DNA from: Bacteriovorax sp.
Lineage (GTDB): Bacteria > Bdellovibrionota > Bacteriovoracia > Bacteriovoracales > Bacteriovoracaceae
DNA length: 37,227 nt
Direction: 5' to 3'
NCBI GenBank assembly: GCA_014378525.1
Contig: JACMNL010000030.1
Coordinates: 1-37,227 of the forward strand
Part shown: one piece after another, positions 8,247 to 14,549 of the stretch
Layout: each line of letters starts with the position of its first letter
How positions within the stretch are numbered: position 1 is the stretch's first letter
Position numbers and translations under genes: made by a program
The notes under the pieces: generated by a model
The model's input: only the letters and a program-made list of their open reading frames with translations
Databases searched by the model: none
Told to the model about the DNA's origin: nothing

Positions 8247-9695
8247 CTACTTTGAAAGATTTTTTACGAAGTCAGATTCCCAAAGCCCGAGACAAGTTCC
8301 GTTGCTCAAAATAAGCACGACACTTTCCGGCCCGGTAATTTTTTCAATCTCTGTCATAAGTTCCGGCAGAGTTCCGACAACACTTCCCGGCCTTCCCGAT
8401 TTTTTTACACCTTCAACAATCTTGTAGATATCAAGATCGCCGACATCTTTAACACTTGTCGGTCTCGTTGGTTTTGTAAAAATAACAGAGGCAGCTCGAG
8501 TTAGTGACTCTTCAAATTCTTTCTGGAAAATCGCACTTCTGGCAGTCGCCGAATTTGGCTCCATGATGACGTTGATTTTTTTTCCTGGATATTTTGTAAT
8601 GATCCCGTCTAGTGTTAACTCGACAGCACGAGGGTGGTGAGCAAAGTCGTCGATGACAAGAGCACCTTTGTAAATTCCGCGAACTTCCTGACGGCGTTTC
8701 ACCATCTGAAGATCTTTAATCGCAGCTGCGATCTGGTCTCTTGTAAATCCTTCCGATAGTGCGTAGATAATAACGGCAGCAAGGTTTGCGACGTTGTGTC
8801 TTCCGATAAGATTCGTTTCGAAAGTATAAGTTTCTTTATTTAAATTTAACTGAAAGCTGGTTCCTTTTGGTGACGATTCTAAAATTTTCGGACCTACGTC
8901 TGATTTTTCTCCGTACTTGATCCACTTATTTTTATCACCGTCTGAAAACTCAGCGAACAATTCATTAGCGGCCACATAATCTGAACAGAAAATGAATTTT
9001 TTATCGATGTGAGGAATTGCAGCTCTGAACTGATCTTTGATTGCTTCAACAGAAGCAAAAATATCAGCGTGGTCATATTCAAGCGACGTTAAAATAAGAT
9101 TGTCGATTGAGTATGACCGGAACTTAGAAATTTTTTCAAAGTAAGCAGAATCGTATTCATCTGATTCGATGAAAAAATATTTTCCGCTTCCAAGTTTTGA
9201 AGAAGGACGGTTTTCCATAACTCCACCGATTAAATAACCAGGAAGAGCATTTAGATTTTCGAAAACCTGAGTTGCTAAATATGTCGTTGTTGTTTTACCG
9301 TGAGTTCCGGCGATACCGATAACATTTACTTCGCTTAAAACCAGCGCTCCGATTGATGTCGGGAATGAAGCGAACTTTACCCCTGACTCTTCGATAATTT
9401 TTGCATCAGGGCCACCGTTTGGAATAACGTTACCGACAACTATAAGGTCAAACTTGCTTAGAAATGCCTGATCAACTTTGTCGAGTTTATGCAATGGAAT
9501 GCCTGTCGACTCTAAATATGTACTCATCGGAGGATAATAATTTGTATCTCCACCTTCTACATCAAAACCTTTTTCTTTTAACAAACAGGCAGCAGCTCCC
9601 ATCCCGGTTCCGCATACTCTGTAAAAAAACACTCGTTTAATATCTTTTTGAAGCTTCTTCAGACCGCTGTAGTCAAGTTTGTTTGCTAAATTCAT
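8247..9695 (-). CDS. mpl: UDP-MurNAc:murein tripeptide ligase Mpl (Mur ligase family)
   Basis: A 482-residue Mur ligase. The N-terminal UDP-binding part shows VCGTGMGAAACLL and the Mpl-like TNYYPPMSTYLESTGI. The ATP-binding P-loop is GTHGKTTT at 130-137, followed by FIESDEYDSAYFEK, and the C-terminal domain has VIDDFAHHPRAVELTL. Mpl re-attaches the recycled tripeptide L-Ala-D-Glu-mDAP to UDP-MurNAc in the cytoplasm, so old or foreign wall peptides feed new peptidoglycan. MurC is the main alternative. The YPPMS motif and the acidic EYDSAYFEK region favour Mpl. The ATG has AGGA 7 bases upstream. The exported protein at 6552-8243 follows after 3 bases. Confidence 0.9.
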   Translation of the reverse strand: MNLANKLDYSGLKKLQKDIKRVFFYRVCGTGMGAAACLLKEKGFDVEGGDTNYYPPMSTYLESTGIPLHKLDKVDQAFLSKFDLIVVGNVIPNGGPDAKIIEESGVKFASFPTSIGALVLSEVNVIGIAGTHGKTTTTYLATQVFENLNALPGYLIGGVMENRPSSKLGSGKYFFIESDEYDSAYFEKISKFRSYSIDNLILTSLEYDHADIFASVEAIKDQFRAAIPHIDKKFIFCSDYVAANELFAEFSDGDKNKWIKYGEKSDVGPKILESSPKGTSFQLNLNKETYTFETNLIGRHNVANLAAVIIYALSEGFTRDQIAAAIKDLQMVKRRQEVRGIYKGALVIDDFAHHPRAVELTLDGIITKYPGKKINVIMEPNSATARSAIFQKEFEESLTRAASVIFTKPTRPTSVKDVGDLDIYKIVEGVKKSGRPGSVVGTLPELMTEIEKITGPESVVLILSNGTCLGLWESDFVKNLSK

Positions 9696-9800: not shown

Positions 9801-11399
9801 GTGAAAAATTTAGTTCAATTTTTATGCATTGGTTTGATGTTAATTTTTAACAGTTGTTCAACTGTTATTGAAAGAACACCTGCAGAAGTTGATAACAAAA
9901 TTTTTAATCAGGCATTCTCTTTTTCTGCAATTGAAACTTCTGATTACAATTTTGAGGAAGAAGTTAAAAAGTATACCAGCCTCTATACAGGCGGTAACGA
10001 AGGAAACATCAGAAGAGTTGAACAAATTAAAGTTAAAACACTTCCAGACGGCGCCATCTTCAAAGTCGAATTAGGTTATGAAGAAAAAACAGGTGCCATG
10101 CTTTATAAAATTTATTCAACACCTAAAGCATACAAAGACATTGCAGCTTCAAGCGGAGTCATGAACTTTGTAATTAATCTTTTACAGGGACAGCTTAAAC
10201 ATGCCTCTTCAGGGTTCGAGTTGTATTACAATGCCCAGGCCGGTGATCCGATTGCACTTGAAAATGTTTTAAAACTCAGAGGACTTCCTCCGGTGCAGCC
10301 ACTTTCGCAAATGCCAGTCTACAATGACAATCCTCTTTATAAAGAAGGACAAAAAGAAGTTAAAGTAGCTAGAGACGAATTAAAAGATGAAATCACTGTA
10401 TTTAAGAAAAAACGTGCTGCTGATAAAGTTAAAAGAAAAGCTCCACTGGATGCTCTCGATAAAGTTCCCGAAGGAAAACAATTCAGGGCCCTGGTTGCAA
10501 AAAACGACCGCAAGGGAGCAGCTGCAATTTTAAAAAAATATCTTCCATGGGAAGAGATGCCTCCGTTTGAAAAACAATTCTGGGAAAATTATCTCGACAT
10601 CATGGTAAATCCCGTTCCTCTTGATCAACGGGTTTTAATTTACAGAGGTCTGAACGATGACTATATCAATCGCGGAATCGTAGGCGGAAAAGAGCTTTCA
10701 GAAAAAGAGGCCATTCTAAAAGACCGTGCCTTTATTATGTCGTCAGGTATGGTAAAAAATCAGGGATCGTGGAACAGACGCCTGCGCACACTTGAGGCCA
10801 TGTATGAAAAATTTATTGCGACAATCGGTGGCAGTGATGAATATTCACAATCTGCGCGAATTACTACAATGTTTGGCCAGCACGCTGCTGATCCAAAAGG
10901 AAGCCCCTTCATTTCACTGACTCCACAAATTGGTGTTGCAGAAAGTTTCGGGCAAAAACGCACATCTTCATATCTGATTGATCCAAGATTATTGAGTTTT
11001 AATTATGCTTCTTCATTTGCTAATGAAGTTGAATATCTAATTCCGATTACAACTTTTCCGGATGAATTGATAGCCATCGCAGATGTGGATCTGATGCATG
11101 AAATGGATCCCGCAATGGATAATAGAAAATATCTGGAGAAAAAACTCGAAGAACACATTACGGATGCCTATGGCAAAGGTGAAAAAGACGCCGTCATCAC
11201 CCGAATAAGGAAAAACACATTTCAATTTTTCAGGATGAAAGACAATCTTGCAACGGATGTAAAAGGCCCGGCTGCAGGTCCGGGTAATTTAAAATTTTAT
11301 AAAAACTTTTTAACTAAAGATGATCCCAAGCCAGCTCTATCACCAAAAGGTGAATTGAACTGCAAGGATCTGATAGAACTTTTCTGGATGGCCAAGTAA
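9801..11399 (+). CDS. Lipoprotein with an ADP-ribosyltransferase-like C-terminal domain
   Basis: 532 residues. A lipoprotein signal ends IFNSC, with C19 as the lipidated residue (an imperfect lipobox). Residues 20-270 form an unrecognised region with a Lys-rich helical part near 185-215. From about 275 to 425 the protein carries an R-S-E-type ADP-ribosyltransferase pattern: LIYRGL with R282, then FISLTPQIGVAESFG with S372-L-T374 in place of the STS motif, then NEVEYLIP with E409-V-E411 as the ExE motif. In that family R and S bind NAD+ and the second Glu is catalytic. The start is GTG with GGAGAAGGAG upstream. The stop overlaps the next lipoprotein gene (TAATG). The fold is inferred from the motifs, and activity and target are unknown. 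Confidence 0.8.
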   Translation: MKNLVQFLCIGLMLIFNSCSTVIERTPAEVDNKIFNQAFSFSAIETSDYNFEEEVKKYTSLYTGGNEGNIRRVEQIKVKTLPDGAIFKVELGYEEKTGAMLYKIYSTPKAYKDIAASSGVMNFVINLLQGQLKHASSGFELYYNAQAGDPIALENVLKLRGLPPVQPLSQMPVYNDNPLYKEGQKEVKVARDELKDEITVFKKKRAADKVKRKAPLDALDKVPEGKQFRALVAKNDRKGAAAILKKYLPWEEMPPFEKQFWENYLDIMVNPVPLDQRVLIYRGLNDDYINRGIVGGKELSEKEAILKDRAFIMSSGMVKNQGSWNRRLRTLEAMYEKFIATIGGSDEYSQSARITTMFGQHAADPKGSPFISLTPQIGVAESFGQKRTSSYLIDPRLLSFNYASSFANEVEYLIPITTFPDELIAIADVDLMHEMDPAMDNRKYLEKKLEEHITDAYGKGEKDAVITRIRKNTFQFFRMKDNLATDVKGPAAGPGNLKFYKNFLTKDDPKPALSPKGELNCKDLIELFWMAK

Positions 11400-13879
11400 T
11401 GAAACTATTAAGTTTATCACTTATTCTCTCTCTATTTATTTCAAGTTGTTCGAACTTACAGTTCGTTCGACCTGGAGTTGCTACTGCACCTCAAAGTACA
11501 ATGCGTCTTCCTGCTTCGAACGTTGATGAAATCACTTATTACTTATCCGTAGATAAATTTAAATATTACTTGAATGAATACTCTGTAGCTCAGGAAGGAA
11601 AAATCCCCCAGGAGATCGTCGATCATTTAAGAGATATGAGTGTCGAGAAGATCATGAAACTGGAACTGGATCATGACCAGCTTCTGGACGCGAACAATTA
11701 CGATAAAATGATTGTCCAGATTTTAAAGGACGAAGATCTTTTAAAAGGTGTAACTCAGACCCAGCTAAAATGGAATTATAACTTCTTCAAAAATAAATTG
11801 AATGAAGCGTTCGCTCTTGCACCAAGCAAGCTCGACATTAATTTGAGTATGCCAAGCACTGCAAGTGACATCGATACCGGAATTACAATTAATCCGACCG
11901 AACTTGCGCCTGAAGATATGACTCTCGATTCAGGCCACTATATTTCCAATCGTACAACGCGGGCAATTTTTTGGGAAGCAAACGAAAACAACCGTCCCAT
12001 AGAGTTTCATCTTGGTGACAGCCGTGAATTCTTAAAAGAGTTAAAAGATAAAAACGGAGAAATACTTTTCGAAGTAAAACCATTTGCAAAAAACTATAAC
12101 AAAATTTACATTATTCAGTACCCTGGAGAAAAGACTTACCGTTACGCCATCACCAATATTGGTGGCAAGGACCGTCTCGACCATTTAACTCACCAGATTT
12201 CACTTTCAAATATCACGAACGGAAAACTTAAAAGCAAAGTCATCGTTAAGGGTGACATAAAAAGATTCCATGCTGCTAAAACAGAAGAGCATGAACTACA
12301 GCTTCGACTCCTTCCACATGCAGACAGAGTTATCATAGGCCAAAAGGAATCTATAGACGGAAAATTCAACCTTTTCTGGAAAAGAGAAGCACTAAAAAAT
12401 CTTTATGCCGACAATCAGATTTATTTCCAGAAAACGCTGGAGGGAATGCCTGAAAAAGACAGGACAAAATATTTCCAGATGATGAACTCAAATAACTACG
12501 AAGCCATGTTCAAGGACAAAAAAATTCTTGAAGATGCTTTCCTTTTATTCGAAGATTTTTTCACAAAAAATCCGGATAAACTCCCCGCGAAATTTAAAAC
12601 TTATAACTATGACAACTTCACGGTTGAAATGTGCGACTACGTTTTTTCTGACAACGGAAAAGATGTCAGATGGCGTGTCGTTTCCAATGTATGGGGTGAC
12701 GAAGTTATTCCTATTGCACAGGCCTTAAAAAATACCGGCAATACAAATGTAACTTACATGGGAACAGCTGGTGCCTTCGCAGACAAGGGATATAAAGTTG
12801 GTGACCTCGTTGTACCAAACGCTATCCGCGACGGGGCCGGAACAGAAAAAATGTTTTCGCAGACAATGAAAATTGAAGGCGCACGTTACGGCGGAACTGT
12901 AGAGCATGTAGGTTCTCCTTTCGAAGAAGACAATGCCTGGCTTGCAAAGGCGCGCGCACAATCTGATTTTGTTGAAGTTGAAACATCATATCTGAGAAGA
13001 ATTTTCAACGGACCAAAAGATAACATCGAATTTTATCTTCTGGTTTCTGATATTTTAGGAAGTGATACTGAAACTCTTGCTCACGCGACAAGCGGAAAAA
13101 GAAAAAATGCCCAGAACAAACTTCTTGCGGAGTTATTTAAGAGAGACGCGAAATCTGCTCCATTCCCTGTGAAGGTAGCACCTTCAAATGCCGTCGAGAG
13201 AGCAAAAAATCTGGTACTGAAAGTGCTGGAGAAAAAGACACCTGCTTTCCGTTATTATGTTTTCTCTCATTTAAAAAACACTCCGAATTTAACTGAAAAA
13301 GATATTCTTGCATTCGCGGAAAAGAAACCGGCCTTCACGGATACCTATCTGGTGGACCGTCTGGTTAAAATCAGTGAAGTCATTCATGAACTTAGAAAGA
13401 GTTATCCAGAGGCCGGTAATTTCGATATTGCCTTCTCAAAATCGCTCATCCTTGGAACGTGGAACCCGAAAGAAGATAAATTGAACATTACGATCAAAGC
13501 AAAAAACACGCAGGCGCAGAAAGAGATTGAAGCGGCCTTCAAAGACAATCAAAAATTCCTGGACTCAATAAAATCTTTTGCAATTTTTGACACAAGAATG
13601 GCAATCGATGATCCGAATATGGTTTGGATGAAGGTCCCTGAAAAAACCGACCCAGATCTGCTCGTGAAACTCTATGCACACGCAGGTTTTCAAAATGCCG
13701 GACTTTATAAAAACGTTACATACAACGGAAACATCACGCTGGACTTTTTACCAACGGCTAGAGCTGAAAATCCTCTTGAAGCCTACTATCAGGGTAAAGG
13801 GATTGTTCCAGCTGCGAACCTAAAAGAAGTTGGTGGGACGTGTATGGAAGCGATGAGAAGGTTAATGCAGATTATATAG
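11399..13879 (+). CDS. Large lipoprotein with a nucleoside-phosphorylase-like domain
   Basis: 826 residues. The lipoprotein signal ends FISSC (C17). Residues 40-400 are unrecognised. About 405-600 resembles the nucleoside phosphorylase/nucleosidase (PNP/MTAN) superfamily: GTAGAF at 455-460, VGDLVVP at 467-473, VEVETSYL at 525-532 in the position of the Glu-containing substrate motif, and LLVSD at 547-551 in the position of the usual SD catalytic motif. Such enzymes cleave the glycosidic bond of nucleosides. The remaining 220 residues are unassigned. It is translationally coupled to the ADP-ribosyltransferase-like lipoprotein gene by a 1-base overlap. I see the motif order clearly, but activity, substrate and cellular role are inference. 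Confidence 0.8.
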   Translation: MKLLSLSLILSLFISSCSNLQFVRPGVATAPQSTMRLPASNVDEITYYLSVDKFKYYLNEYSVAQEGKIPQEIVDHLRDMSVEKIMKLELDHDQLLDANNYDKMIVQILKDEDLLKGVTQTQLKWNYNFFKNKLNEAFALAPSKLDINLSMPSTASDIDTGITINPTELAPEDMTLDSGHYISNRTTRAIFWEANENNRPIEFHLGDSREFLKELKDKNGEILFEVKPFAKNYNKIYIIQYPGEKTYRYAITNIGGKDRLDHLTHQISLSNITNGKLKSKVIVKGDIKRFHAAKTEEHELQLRLLPHADRVIIGQKESIDGKFNLFWKREALKNLYADNQIYFQKTLEGMPEKDRTKYFQMMNSNNYEAMFKDKKILEDAFLLFEDFFTKNPDKLPAKFKTYNYDNFTVEMCDYVFSDNGKDVRWRVVSNVWGDEVIPIAQALKNTGNTNVTYMGTAGAFADKGYKVGDLVVPNAIRDGAGTEKMFSQTMKIEGARYGGTVEHVGSPFEEDNAWLAKARAQSDFVEVETSYLRRIFNGPKDNIEFYLLVSDILGSDTETLAHATSGKRKNAQNKLLAELFKRDAKSAPFPVKVAPSNAVERAKNLVLKVLEKKTPAFRYYVFSHLKNTPNLTEKDILAFAEKKPAFTDTYLVDRLVKISEVIHELRKSYPEAGNFDIAFSKSLILGTWNPKEDKLNITIKAKNTQAQKEIEAAFKDNQKFLDSIKSFAIFDTRMAIDDPNMVWMKVPEKTDPDLLVKLYAHAGFQNAGLYKNVTYNGNITLDFLPTARAENPLEAYYQGKGIVPAANLKEVGGTCMEAMRRLMQII

Positions 13880-13904
13880 ATCTGGATATCGGAGAATTTT
13901 TTTG

Positions 13905-14549
13905 ATGAAACGTTTTGGGGTGTACGCCCTGGCCTTAACATTAACGGTGATATTTTGTAGTTGTGACAGCAATGTGACGATTTTTACAAATTCTAAATCA
14001 TCGTCATACAATCCACGACTGCATTTAAGTGCTGTCGGTGAGAATGAAAAACTACCGAACGGAGTCAGGGAACTTCTTAATCAAAACAGCGATAAAAAAA
14101 AGTCCATTGCTAAATTCCCTCTTTCTTATTATCTGATCCAGGAAGAAGACACTACATTTCTTCGTACAAAAAAATTCGATACAGAGATTGTTGATCAGCT
14201 TGATTCGAGTGTAAGCGGCGACAGATATTTTAAACTCTTCGTTCATCCGGACTCTGATGCCGTATATGCTTTTTTAAAACATGCCTACAGGTATATCGGA
14301 CCTGATGAAACCGAGTTCGTCGCCTCTTCTATACCTGGAAATAAAACAGTCGTTGTCTGGACAAAAAAGAACCTGAAGAAAACTCCTTTCATCGTAAAGA
14401 CAGTCCTCGATCAGGCCAGCATGCAGGAGATAAGTTCCAGATTTCCTGCGACTGCACCAGAGATGGCAACCCTGATTTTCAAGCGAAAAATAAAAGGTAC
14501 TAATGAGAAAATCGAAGGTCAGCAGATCACACCTGTTCCTCAGTTTTAG
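13905..14549 (+). CDS. Lipoprotein of unknown function, third gene of the operon
   Basis: 214 residues from ATG at 13905. A TTG directly before it (13902) is also possible, and GGAG at 13891 serves either. The signal peptide ends IFCSC, giving a lipidated Cys at residue 20 of this start followed by DSN. An Asp at +2 would favour retention in the inner membrane by the E. coli rule, unlike the Ser at +2 in the two preceding lipoproteins; whether that rule holds here is unknown. The mature part is a mixed-charge globular region with a Pro/Gln tail and no recognised family. It starts 25 bases after the 826-residue lipoprotein gene, so one transcript is likely. Confidence 0.78.
   Translation: MKRFGVYALALTLTVIFCSCDSNVTIFTNSKSSSYNPRLHLSAVGENEKLPNGVRELLNQNSDKKKSIAKFPLSYYLIQEEDTTFLRTKKFDTEIVDQLDSSVSGDRYFKLFVHPDSDAVYAFLKHAYRYIGPDETEFVASSIPGNKTVVVWTKKNLKKTPFIVKTVLDQASMQEISSRFPATAPEMATLIFKRKIKGTNEKIEGQQITPVPQF

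Follow-up and report, generated by a model that had tools for sequence, protein, structure and literature searches.

The closest described systems to the locus studied here are the ADP-ribosyltransferases (ARTs) of family PF01129, with their GPI-anchored ecto-ARTs and bacterial relatives, and the ART domains of polymorphic toxins. An ExE motif with two glutamates is typical of transferases rather than of pure NADases. To our knowledge, the modifying enzymes employed in prey takeover by predators of the Bdellovibrio and Bacteriovorax type are still largely an open question. ART1 is listed as a GPI-anchored ectoenzyme (PMC7955679), and the R-S-E clade of ARTs is defined by the Arg of the RG motif in strand 1, the Ser of the S-x-S/T motif in strand 2, and the Glu of an (E/Q)xE motif (PMC3482391, PMC7955679). 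Among the openly licensed papers listed for Bdellovibrio, Bacteriovorax, or predatory bacteria in connection with ADP-ribosylation, secreted lipoproteins, sorting signals, IucA, NAD effectors, and nucleoside phosphorylases, no title or abstract opening mentions the protein family or the C-terminal tail reported below.

Here we describe a lipoprotein of Bacteriovorax sp. (Bdellovibrionota, Bacteriovoracaceae), designated P0001. On the basis of sequence comparisons we consider it likely that P0001 is an exported lipid-anchored mono-ADP-ribosyltransferase of the R-S-E type. It would belong to a clade that is not covered by Pfam and has so far been found in Bdellovibrionota, and it would act with a partner, probably on prey.

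The locus and its predicted lipoproteins

The window, i.e., the whole stretch of DNA that was analyzed, is 37,227 nucleotides long. The following features are discussed in this text.

9801..11399, + strand: ORF of the ART-like lipoprotein P0001, 532 aa, GTG start, with the ART-like domain in the C-terminal half
9801..9857, + strand: predicted signal peptide and lipobox of P0001 (LIFNSC, lipidated Cys19), assigned by the lipobox rule
9888..10445, + strand: N-terminal region of P0001, about residues 30-215; E140 and N144 are kept in 30 of 30 aligned sequences
10449..11129, + strand: ART-like domain of P0001, residues 217-443
10644..10646, + strand: R282 in the YRG motif of P0001, identified by conservation and alignment to ARTs
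10674..10883, + strand: family-specific stretch, P0001 residues 292-361, with KNQGSWNRRLRTL and H361, absent from the compared PF01129 ARTs
10914..10922, + strand: S372-L-T374 of P0001, counterpart of the S-x-S/T motif
11025..11033, + strand: E409-V-E411 of P0001, the ExE motif, with E411 as the predicted catalytic Glu
11361..11396, + strand: C-terminal tail of P0001 with Cys521, from the tail comparison across relatives
11399..13879, + strand: ORF of the lipoprotein P0002 with a PNP-like core, 826 aa, one-base overlap with the P0001 ORF
12722..13078, + strand: PNP-like core of P0002, residues about 442-560, with VEVE at 525-528 and SD at 550-551
13841..13876, + strand: C-terminal tail of P0002 with Cys815, from the tail comparison
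13902..14549, + strand: third operon gene, a lipoprotein ORF of 215 aa; in a family of about 560 aa it matches the N-terminal part alone

A first-pass annotation, made from the letters alone, had proposed an ART-like R-S-E signature in a lipid-anchored protein. Translation of 9801-11399 agrees with its ORF and with its placement of R282, S372, T374, E409, and E411. The motifs LIYRGL, FISLTP, and NEVEYLIP begin at residues 279, 370, and 408, and the codons of the five residues begin at 10644, 10914, 10920, 11025, and 11031, respectively. The proposed lipid anchor is likewise supported by the lipobox with its Cys19. In the whole family a crude search found a lipobox in 44 of 86 ORFs; others, judged by eye, appear to have plain signal peptides. 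The N-terminal region of P0001 is the counterpart of the region between the PNP-like and ART-like parts in relatives where the two are fused.

Conservation of the domain and its profile kinship to ADP-ribosyltransferases

The ART-like domain has no convincing match in Pfam, PHROGs, NCBIfam, PADLOC, or the PDB sequences. In particular, the PF01129 model does not match P0001 and gives 0 matches in its genome; since the curated cut-off is not reached, the protein is not filed as a member of PF01129. PF03496 has 0 matches in this genome, but the control genomes (n = 14) are likewise silent, so this zero carries no weight. Matches to spore_V_T and 2w1t within residues 236-307 are far below the cut-off or have E-values above 0.7, and we discarded them as chance. 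A search of viral contigs found no relatives.

A search with the P0001 protein gave matches in 13 of 57 genomes, including its own, and a 30-sequence profile of the domain matched 53 of the 368 phylum genomes. In genus g71 the profile matches 14 of 24 genomes and the other 10 are without a match, and 4 of 14 genomes of the window's own genus have no match to P0001. The genome studied here carries three copies of the ART-like gene. A relative with 80% identity is found on a MAG contig of Bacteriovorax sp. isolate LF-bin-6. One region of another genome (L032; G003, contig C1, 1808371-1816434) includes five tandem genes of ART-like lipoproteins and a 218-aa ORF that matches the N-terminal region only.

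Conservation was assessed in 86 domain-bearing ORFs, the window's ORF included. They come from the fetched regions and represent a part of all profile matches; as they were gathered with the family's own profile, the set is biased toward members that keep the motifs. In this set R282 is kept in 85 of 86 ORFs, S372 in 86, E409 in 85, and E411 in 86. By inspection, the two exceptions are L094, with S at R282, and L126, with Q at E409. Five more positions (R237, G283, H361, S368, and P420) are invariant in 86 of 86 ORFs each, and T374 varies. An ordered R...S...ExE in one sequence alone would mean little. Since R282, S372, E409, and E411 are nearly invariant in the 86 ORFs, their order is more than chance.

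The same counts bear on the possibility that the protein has an ART fold without catalysis and binds a nucleotide or a protein as a structural component of the envelope. Its nature as an envelope lipoprotein, the tandem paralogues (five consecutive ones in G003), and the absence of a known substrate would fit such a role. On the other hand, R, S, and the two glutamates persist even though identity to the window's domain drops to 28% within the first 30 relatives, which argues for catalysis. We regard a non-catalytic role as distinctly unlikely.

As a yardstick for ARTs we used PF01129 matches from the same phylum, which were obtained in 15 of 97 and 33 of 290 genomes. The yardstick includes 27 sequences. 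It excludes L140, L150, and L163, of which L150 and L163 contain stops, as well as matches that had no locus. The family itself was represented by 79 sequences below 90% identity. In the hhalign comparison of the two sets the score is 36.9, with an E-value of 7.2e-5 and a probability of 62.8% over 50 columns. This match is moderate and spans only the S-to-E part, with S aligned to S and ExE to ExE. With a smaller set of seven ART sequences the probability is 55.2% for the 30-sequence profile and 76.3% for the profile of 79; for the latter profile, the larger ART set gives the lower value.

When residues 292-361 are left out, the result rises to 91.5% with an E-value of 8.5e-7, and R282 of the YRG motif falls on the RG of ARTs; the stretch was chosen by the analyst, and this alignment is one of 127 columns printed at mact 0. 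We also moved a 70-residue cut along the domain (n = 23). The three best cuts start just behind R282: 288-357 (44.8), 296-365 (47.6), and 304-373 (42.9). Nine earlier cuts, all of which remove R282, score 38.7-39.2, which is not below the uncut score, and eleven later cuts bring the scores down to 19.6-29.1. The best of 200 profiles that were both shuffled and shortened scores 20.0. Cut 304-373 takes out S372 yet keeps the score given above; the match therefore depends on the entire segment that begins at S372 and extends past ExE. As the cuts that remove R282 keep the score, the support for the alignment of R282 comes from the cut of 292-361, from the higher scores of the cuts that spare R282, and from its conservation. 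Residues 292-361 may be an insert specific to the clade.

These comparisons also help to assess whether the domain could be unrelated to ARTs and have acquired R, S, and ExE by convergence. The lack of any match in HMM libraries or PDB sequences would agree with that, and structure prediction does not help: an AlphaFold model of P0001 residues 216-532, computed together with L031 (two sequences), has a mean pLDDT of 37.7 and has no bearing on whether R282, S372, and E411 share a cleft. The controls speak against it. The best of 50 decoy families scores 21.9 against the ART set, the family profile scores at most 24.8 against 50 decoys, the best of 200 column shuffles reaches 18.8, and the reversed profile 14.8, so that none of the 50 decoy families and none of the 200 shuffles attains the score of the ART match. 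This result is independent of the way in which the 86 ORFs were gathered. Moreover, R, S, and E come into register jointly once 292-361 is left out. Convergence therefore appears very unlikely, and kinship to ARTs is the reading that we adopt.

In a sequence search of the PDB, a seven-sequence subset of the PF01129 yardstick finds solved ARTs, e.g., 4xzj and 1gxy. The chain of sequence matches that leads from the family via PF01129 to ARTs of solved structure is thereby complete, albeit indirect. Speaking against kinship, a two-sequence set of phage T4 ModA and ModB gave no significant match (0.45% and 2.3%). Each of the three residues that define the R-S-E clade has a counterpart in P0001: the Arg of the strand 1 RG motif, the Ser of the strand 2 S-x-S/T motif, and the Glu of (E/Q)xE. 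The sequences around E411 (ExE-x-L-x-P...F) and S372 (S-x-T...VA..F) also resemble those of R-S-E clade ARTs. We read the domain as a probable R-S-E-type ART clade that is missed by Pfam, NCBIfam, PHROGs, and PDB sequence searches. The signature suggested in the first-pass annotation is thus supported by the conservation in 86 ORFs and by the profile-profile comparison with its controls. If roles are presumed to be the same as in known ARTs, R282 would hold NAD+, S372 would support the nicotinamide-ribose pocket, E411 would be the catalytic glutamate, and E409 would favor arginine as the acceptor.

The PNP-like partner and the operon

The first-pass annotation did not cover the PNP-like partner, its fusion to the ART-like protein, the third gene of the operon, or the common C-terminal tail. 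The start of P0002 coincides with the last base of the P0001 stop codon (11399). P0002 matches PNP_UDP_1 (PF01048) with an E-value of 0.0033 and 17.3 bits, below the cut-off of 25.1. Among 13 aligned members of the P0002 family nine match PF01048 at E-values up to 1, the best being 6.9e-5. Residues E526, E528, and S550-D551, which may correspond to active-site residues of PNPs, are invariant in 44 of 44 proteins of the family. The hhalign comparison of the family with 30 canonical PNP sequences is weak (21.9% over 47 columns), and a PDB sequence search with the family found no match. Because of the Pfam score below the cut-off and the weak comparison with canonical PNPs we call P0002 only PNP-like. 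PNP-type ATP nucleosidases of phage defence were considered as a model for P0002 and set aside; PADLOC gave no match.

A PNP-like protein is part of the same chain in 21 of the 86 ART-like ORFs and is encoded adjacently in 28; the other 37 show neither arrangement. We regarded separate genes as adjacent if they lie on the same strand at most 300 bases from a PNP-like or fused gene; ORF starts in this analysis are the earliest possible ones. The 37 include L041 and L042, which lie farther upstream in such clusters, several members of tandem arrays, and some ORFs near contig ends. The fused chains are 1,261-1,323 aa long, with the exception of L130 (1,039 aa). The order of adjacent genes is ART-PNP in the window's family (13 of 28) and PNP-ART in the other 15; in 12 g71 pairs of the latter order the ORFs overlap by 22 bases. 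In the fused proteins L033, L034, and L036 a conserved EExxH-like stretch (e.g., LEEIAHLYQI) lies between the PNP and ART parts; P0001 does not have it.

Beside the window's genes there is an Mpl-like gene (8247-9695; TIGR01081, 279.9 bits, below the model cut-off of 388.7). Its relatives also adjoin the fused gene in L033, L034, L035, and L036, among 12 of the 21 fused members shown, and L033 (G010) is a fused form from the window's own genus. The separate PNP-like protein retains the C-terminal tail which, in the fused form, comes after the ART part. The simplest reading is that the split locus arose when a fused gene located beside a separate ART paralogue lost its ART part. In a quick tree, with SH-aLRT support only and with long branches that make the deep order unsure, the window's family contributes 36 rows of separate ART proteins (support 96), which stand apart from a group of 14 fused proteins and one separate protein (support 99). 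The latter is L129, near a contig start. The fused label changes at least four times on the tree, and two of these changes are forced by starred branches.

The third operon gene encodes in relatives a lipoprotein of about 560 aa, and three scanned members pass the IucA_IucC cut-off of 25 with 28.8, 31.3, and 37.5 bits. The ORFs of the window, L031 (L031_10052), and L047 (L047_4374) match its N-terminal part alone; the window's ORF (13902-14549), truncated with respect to this family, has no Pfam match.

The partner suggests another role for an enzyme with an ART fold: it could be chiefly an NAD+ glycohydrolase which, together with the PNP-like protein, scavenges NAD+ and nucleosides of lysed prey for salvage. 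The PNP-like nature of the partner with its invariant E526, E528, S550, and D551 is consistent with this, the 21 fusions among 86 ORFs suggest coupled chemistry, and a lipoprotein would be suitably located. However, the near invariance of both glutamates of ExE is typical of transferases rather than of pure NADases; PNPs take nucleosides, so a phosphatase step is missing; and the kinship of P0002 itself to PNPs is weak, with a score below the cut-off. We consider scavenging unlikely and retain a transferase as the preferred reading.

Cysteine tails, proposed role and comparison with known systems

A Cys lies within the last 28 residues of 83 of the 86 ART-like proteins (all but L092, L110, and L112) and within the last 12 residues of 76 of them. 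The tail Cys is also present in 25 of 25 separate PNP-like ORFs, although one of them, L130_12_581, is a fragment where the tail occurs by chance. In g71 the tail is approximately C-x-x-[VIL]-F, and the ART paralogues end with CSKVF.

Similar tails occur in non-homologous exported proteins. Exported proteins of about 440 aa encoded beside g71 ART paralogues have tails CSKVF, CSMVF, or CSQVF; two of them (L103:6840-8186 and L104:5742-7067, with a CSQVF/CSKVF tail) were scanned without a Pfam match, and by eye the protein looks glycosyltransferase-like. A 693-aa exported protein of g71 (L275:1806-3884, - strand) includes an ABC1/UbiB-type atypical kinase domain with an E-value of 7.9e-29. Matches to the ABC1-type kinase were found in 24 of 24 genomes, but G155, G164, and G176 have only a shorter, about 30% identical relative. 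The tail is present in 11 of the 12 kinase loci fetched (L297-L308), e.g., as RCEAVLL, RCEMVFQ, or SCSQVFN, and the preceding stretch varies. In the twelfth locus, L303, the open frame apparently runs to the end of the locus, so that its tail is out of view. The ending RCEAVLL is shared with the PNP-like proteins L085 and L090.

A lipoprotein of 1,029 aa (L128:16-3105) ends in a C-terminal Cys tail and carries an amidoligase-like domain (PF12224, with a score over the cut-off). Its gene lies directly upstream of a fused PNP-ART gene, and 32 of 116 genomes contain relatives.

There is no sign of a general C-terminal Cys tag in two genomes. Within 400 kb of G003 the loose tail pattern is no more frequent among secreted-like ORFs (3 of 79) than among cytosol-like ones (4 of 114); the corresponding counts for 400 kb of G167 are 3 of 90 and 2 of 122. 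All three secreted-like matches of G003 belong to the ART operon itself. When a stricter pattern was applied to 800 kb of G167, it matched three ORFs, one among 179 secreted-like and two among 503 others; an ART paralogue and its neighbour account for two of the three. At the DNA level, a scan of three genomes gave 63 matches with the tail pattern and 34 with the control. In 30 of the scan loci three distinct ORFs of at least 100 aa end in the pattern, namely two ART paralogues and one neighbour, and ten further regions yielded one such ORF, an ABC1-type kinase. A narrower pattern gave 56 matches in 24 genomes against 10 for the control, and 11 of the 56 are located, by position, at the ends of kinase genes.

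We tentatively suggest that the ART-like, PNP-like, IucA/IucC-like ligase, and ABC1-type kinase proteins, perhaps with the glycosyltransferase-like protein and the amidoligase, form an exported cohort of enzymes that would all need cytosolic cofactors and all carry a short Cys tail at the end. This tail would then be an undescribed tag for sorting or coupling, by which Bdellovibrionota send out or tether enzymes that modify prey. A tail common to non-homologous exported enzymes, seen at the level of sequence, is the boldest point of our proposal.

Enzymes of these types normally use cytosolic substrates (NAD+, nucleosides, ATP). Because of this, the prey cell or its contents would be the most likely site of action of the exported proteins. 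The ART-like protein, whose gene is accompanied by that of an exported PNP-like protein and in relatives also by that of an IucA/IucC-like lipoprotein, may act in the prey cell or in its released contents, where it would move ADP-ribose onto a prey protein or destroy NAD+. A phylum-wide exported ART-like family joined to a PNP-like partner offers named residues and genes for a direct test. If prey proteins are indeed modified in an NAD-dependent way, this would add a new layer to predation, and if the Cys tail is a sorting tag, such enzymes could be listed from genomes.

MYXO-CTERM-type tags likewise have a conserved Cys near the C-terminus of exported proteins. In such tags the Cys is followed by a TM helix and a basic cluster, whereas the tails of the ART-like, PNP-like, and kinase proteins mostly have 4-11 residues after the Cys with, by eye, no TM helix or basic cluster. 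P0002 resembles the PNP/UDP phosphorylase superfamily (PF01048) in the stretches GTAGA...GD, VEVE, and SD, but, unlike its members, is exported and about 800 aa long, with a large unclassified N-terminal part. The R-S-E ART domains of polymorphic toxins have the same type of active site in an exported bacterial protein (PMC3482391); in contrast to their swapped C-terminal cassettes, the P0001 family is conserved across the phylum. Pfam and NCBIfam scans of P0001 and its neighbours, in which only known immunity families are recognizable, detected no toxin-delivery domain and no immunity gene. In PF01129 ARTs the YRG, S-x-S/T, and ExExLxP motifs follow in the same order as in P0001, and the distance from S to the catalytic E, measured by eye, is 39 residues in P0001 (S372-E411) and 38 in L137, a PF01129 member. 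Unlike these ARTs, P0001 has some 70 additional residues between R and S, which include KNQG/RRLRSL and an invariant His, and it is a lipoprotein with its own N-terminal region and a PNP-like partner.
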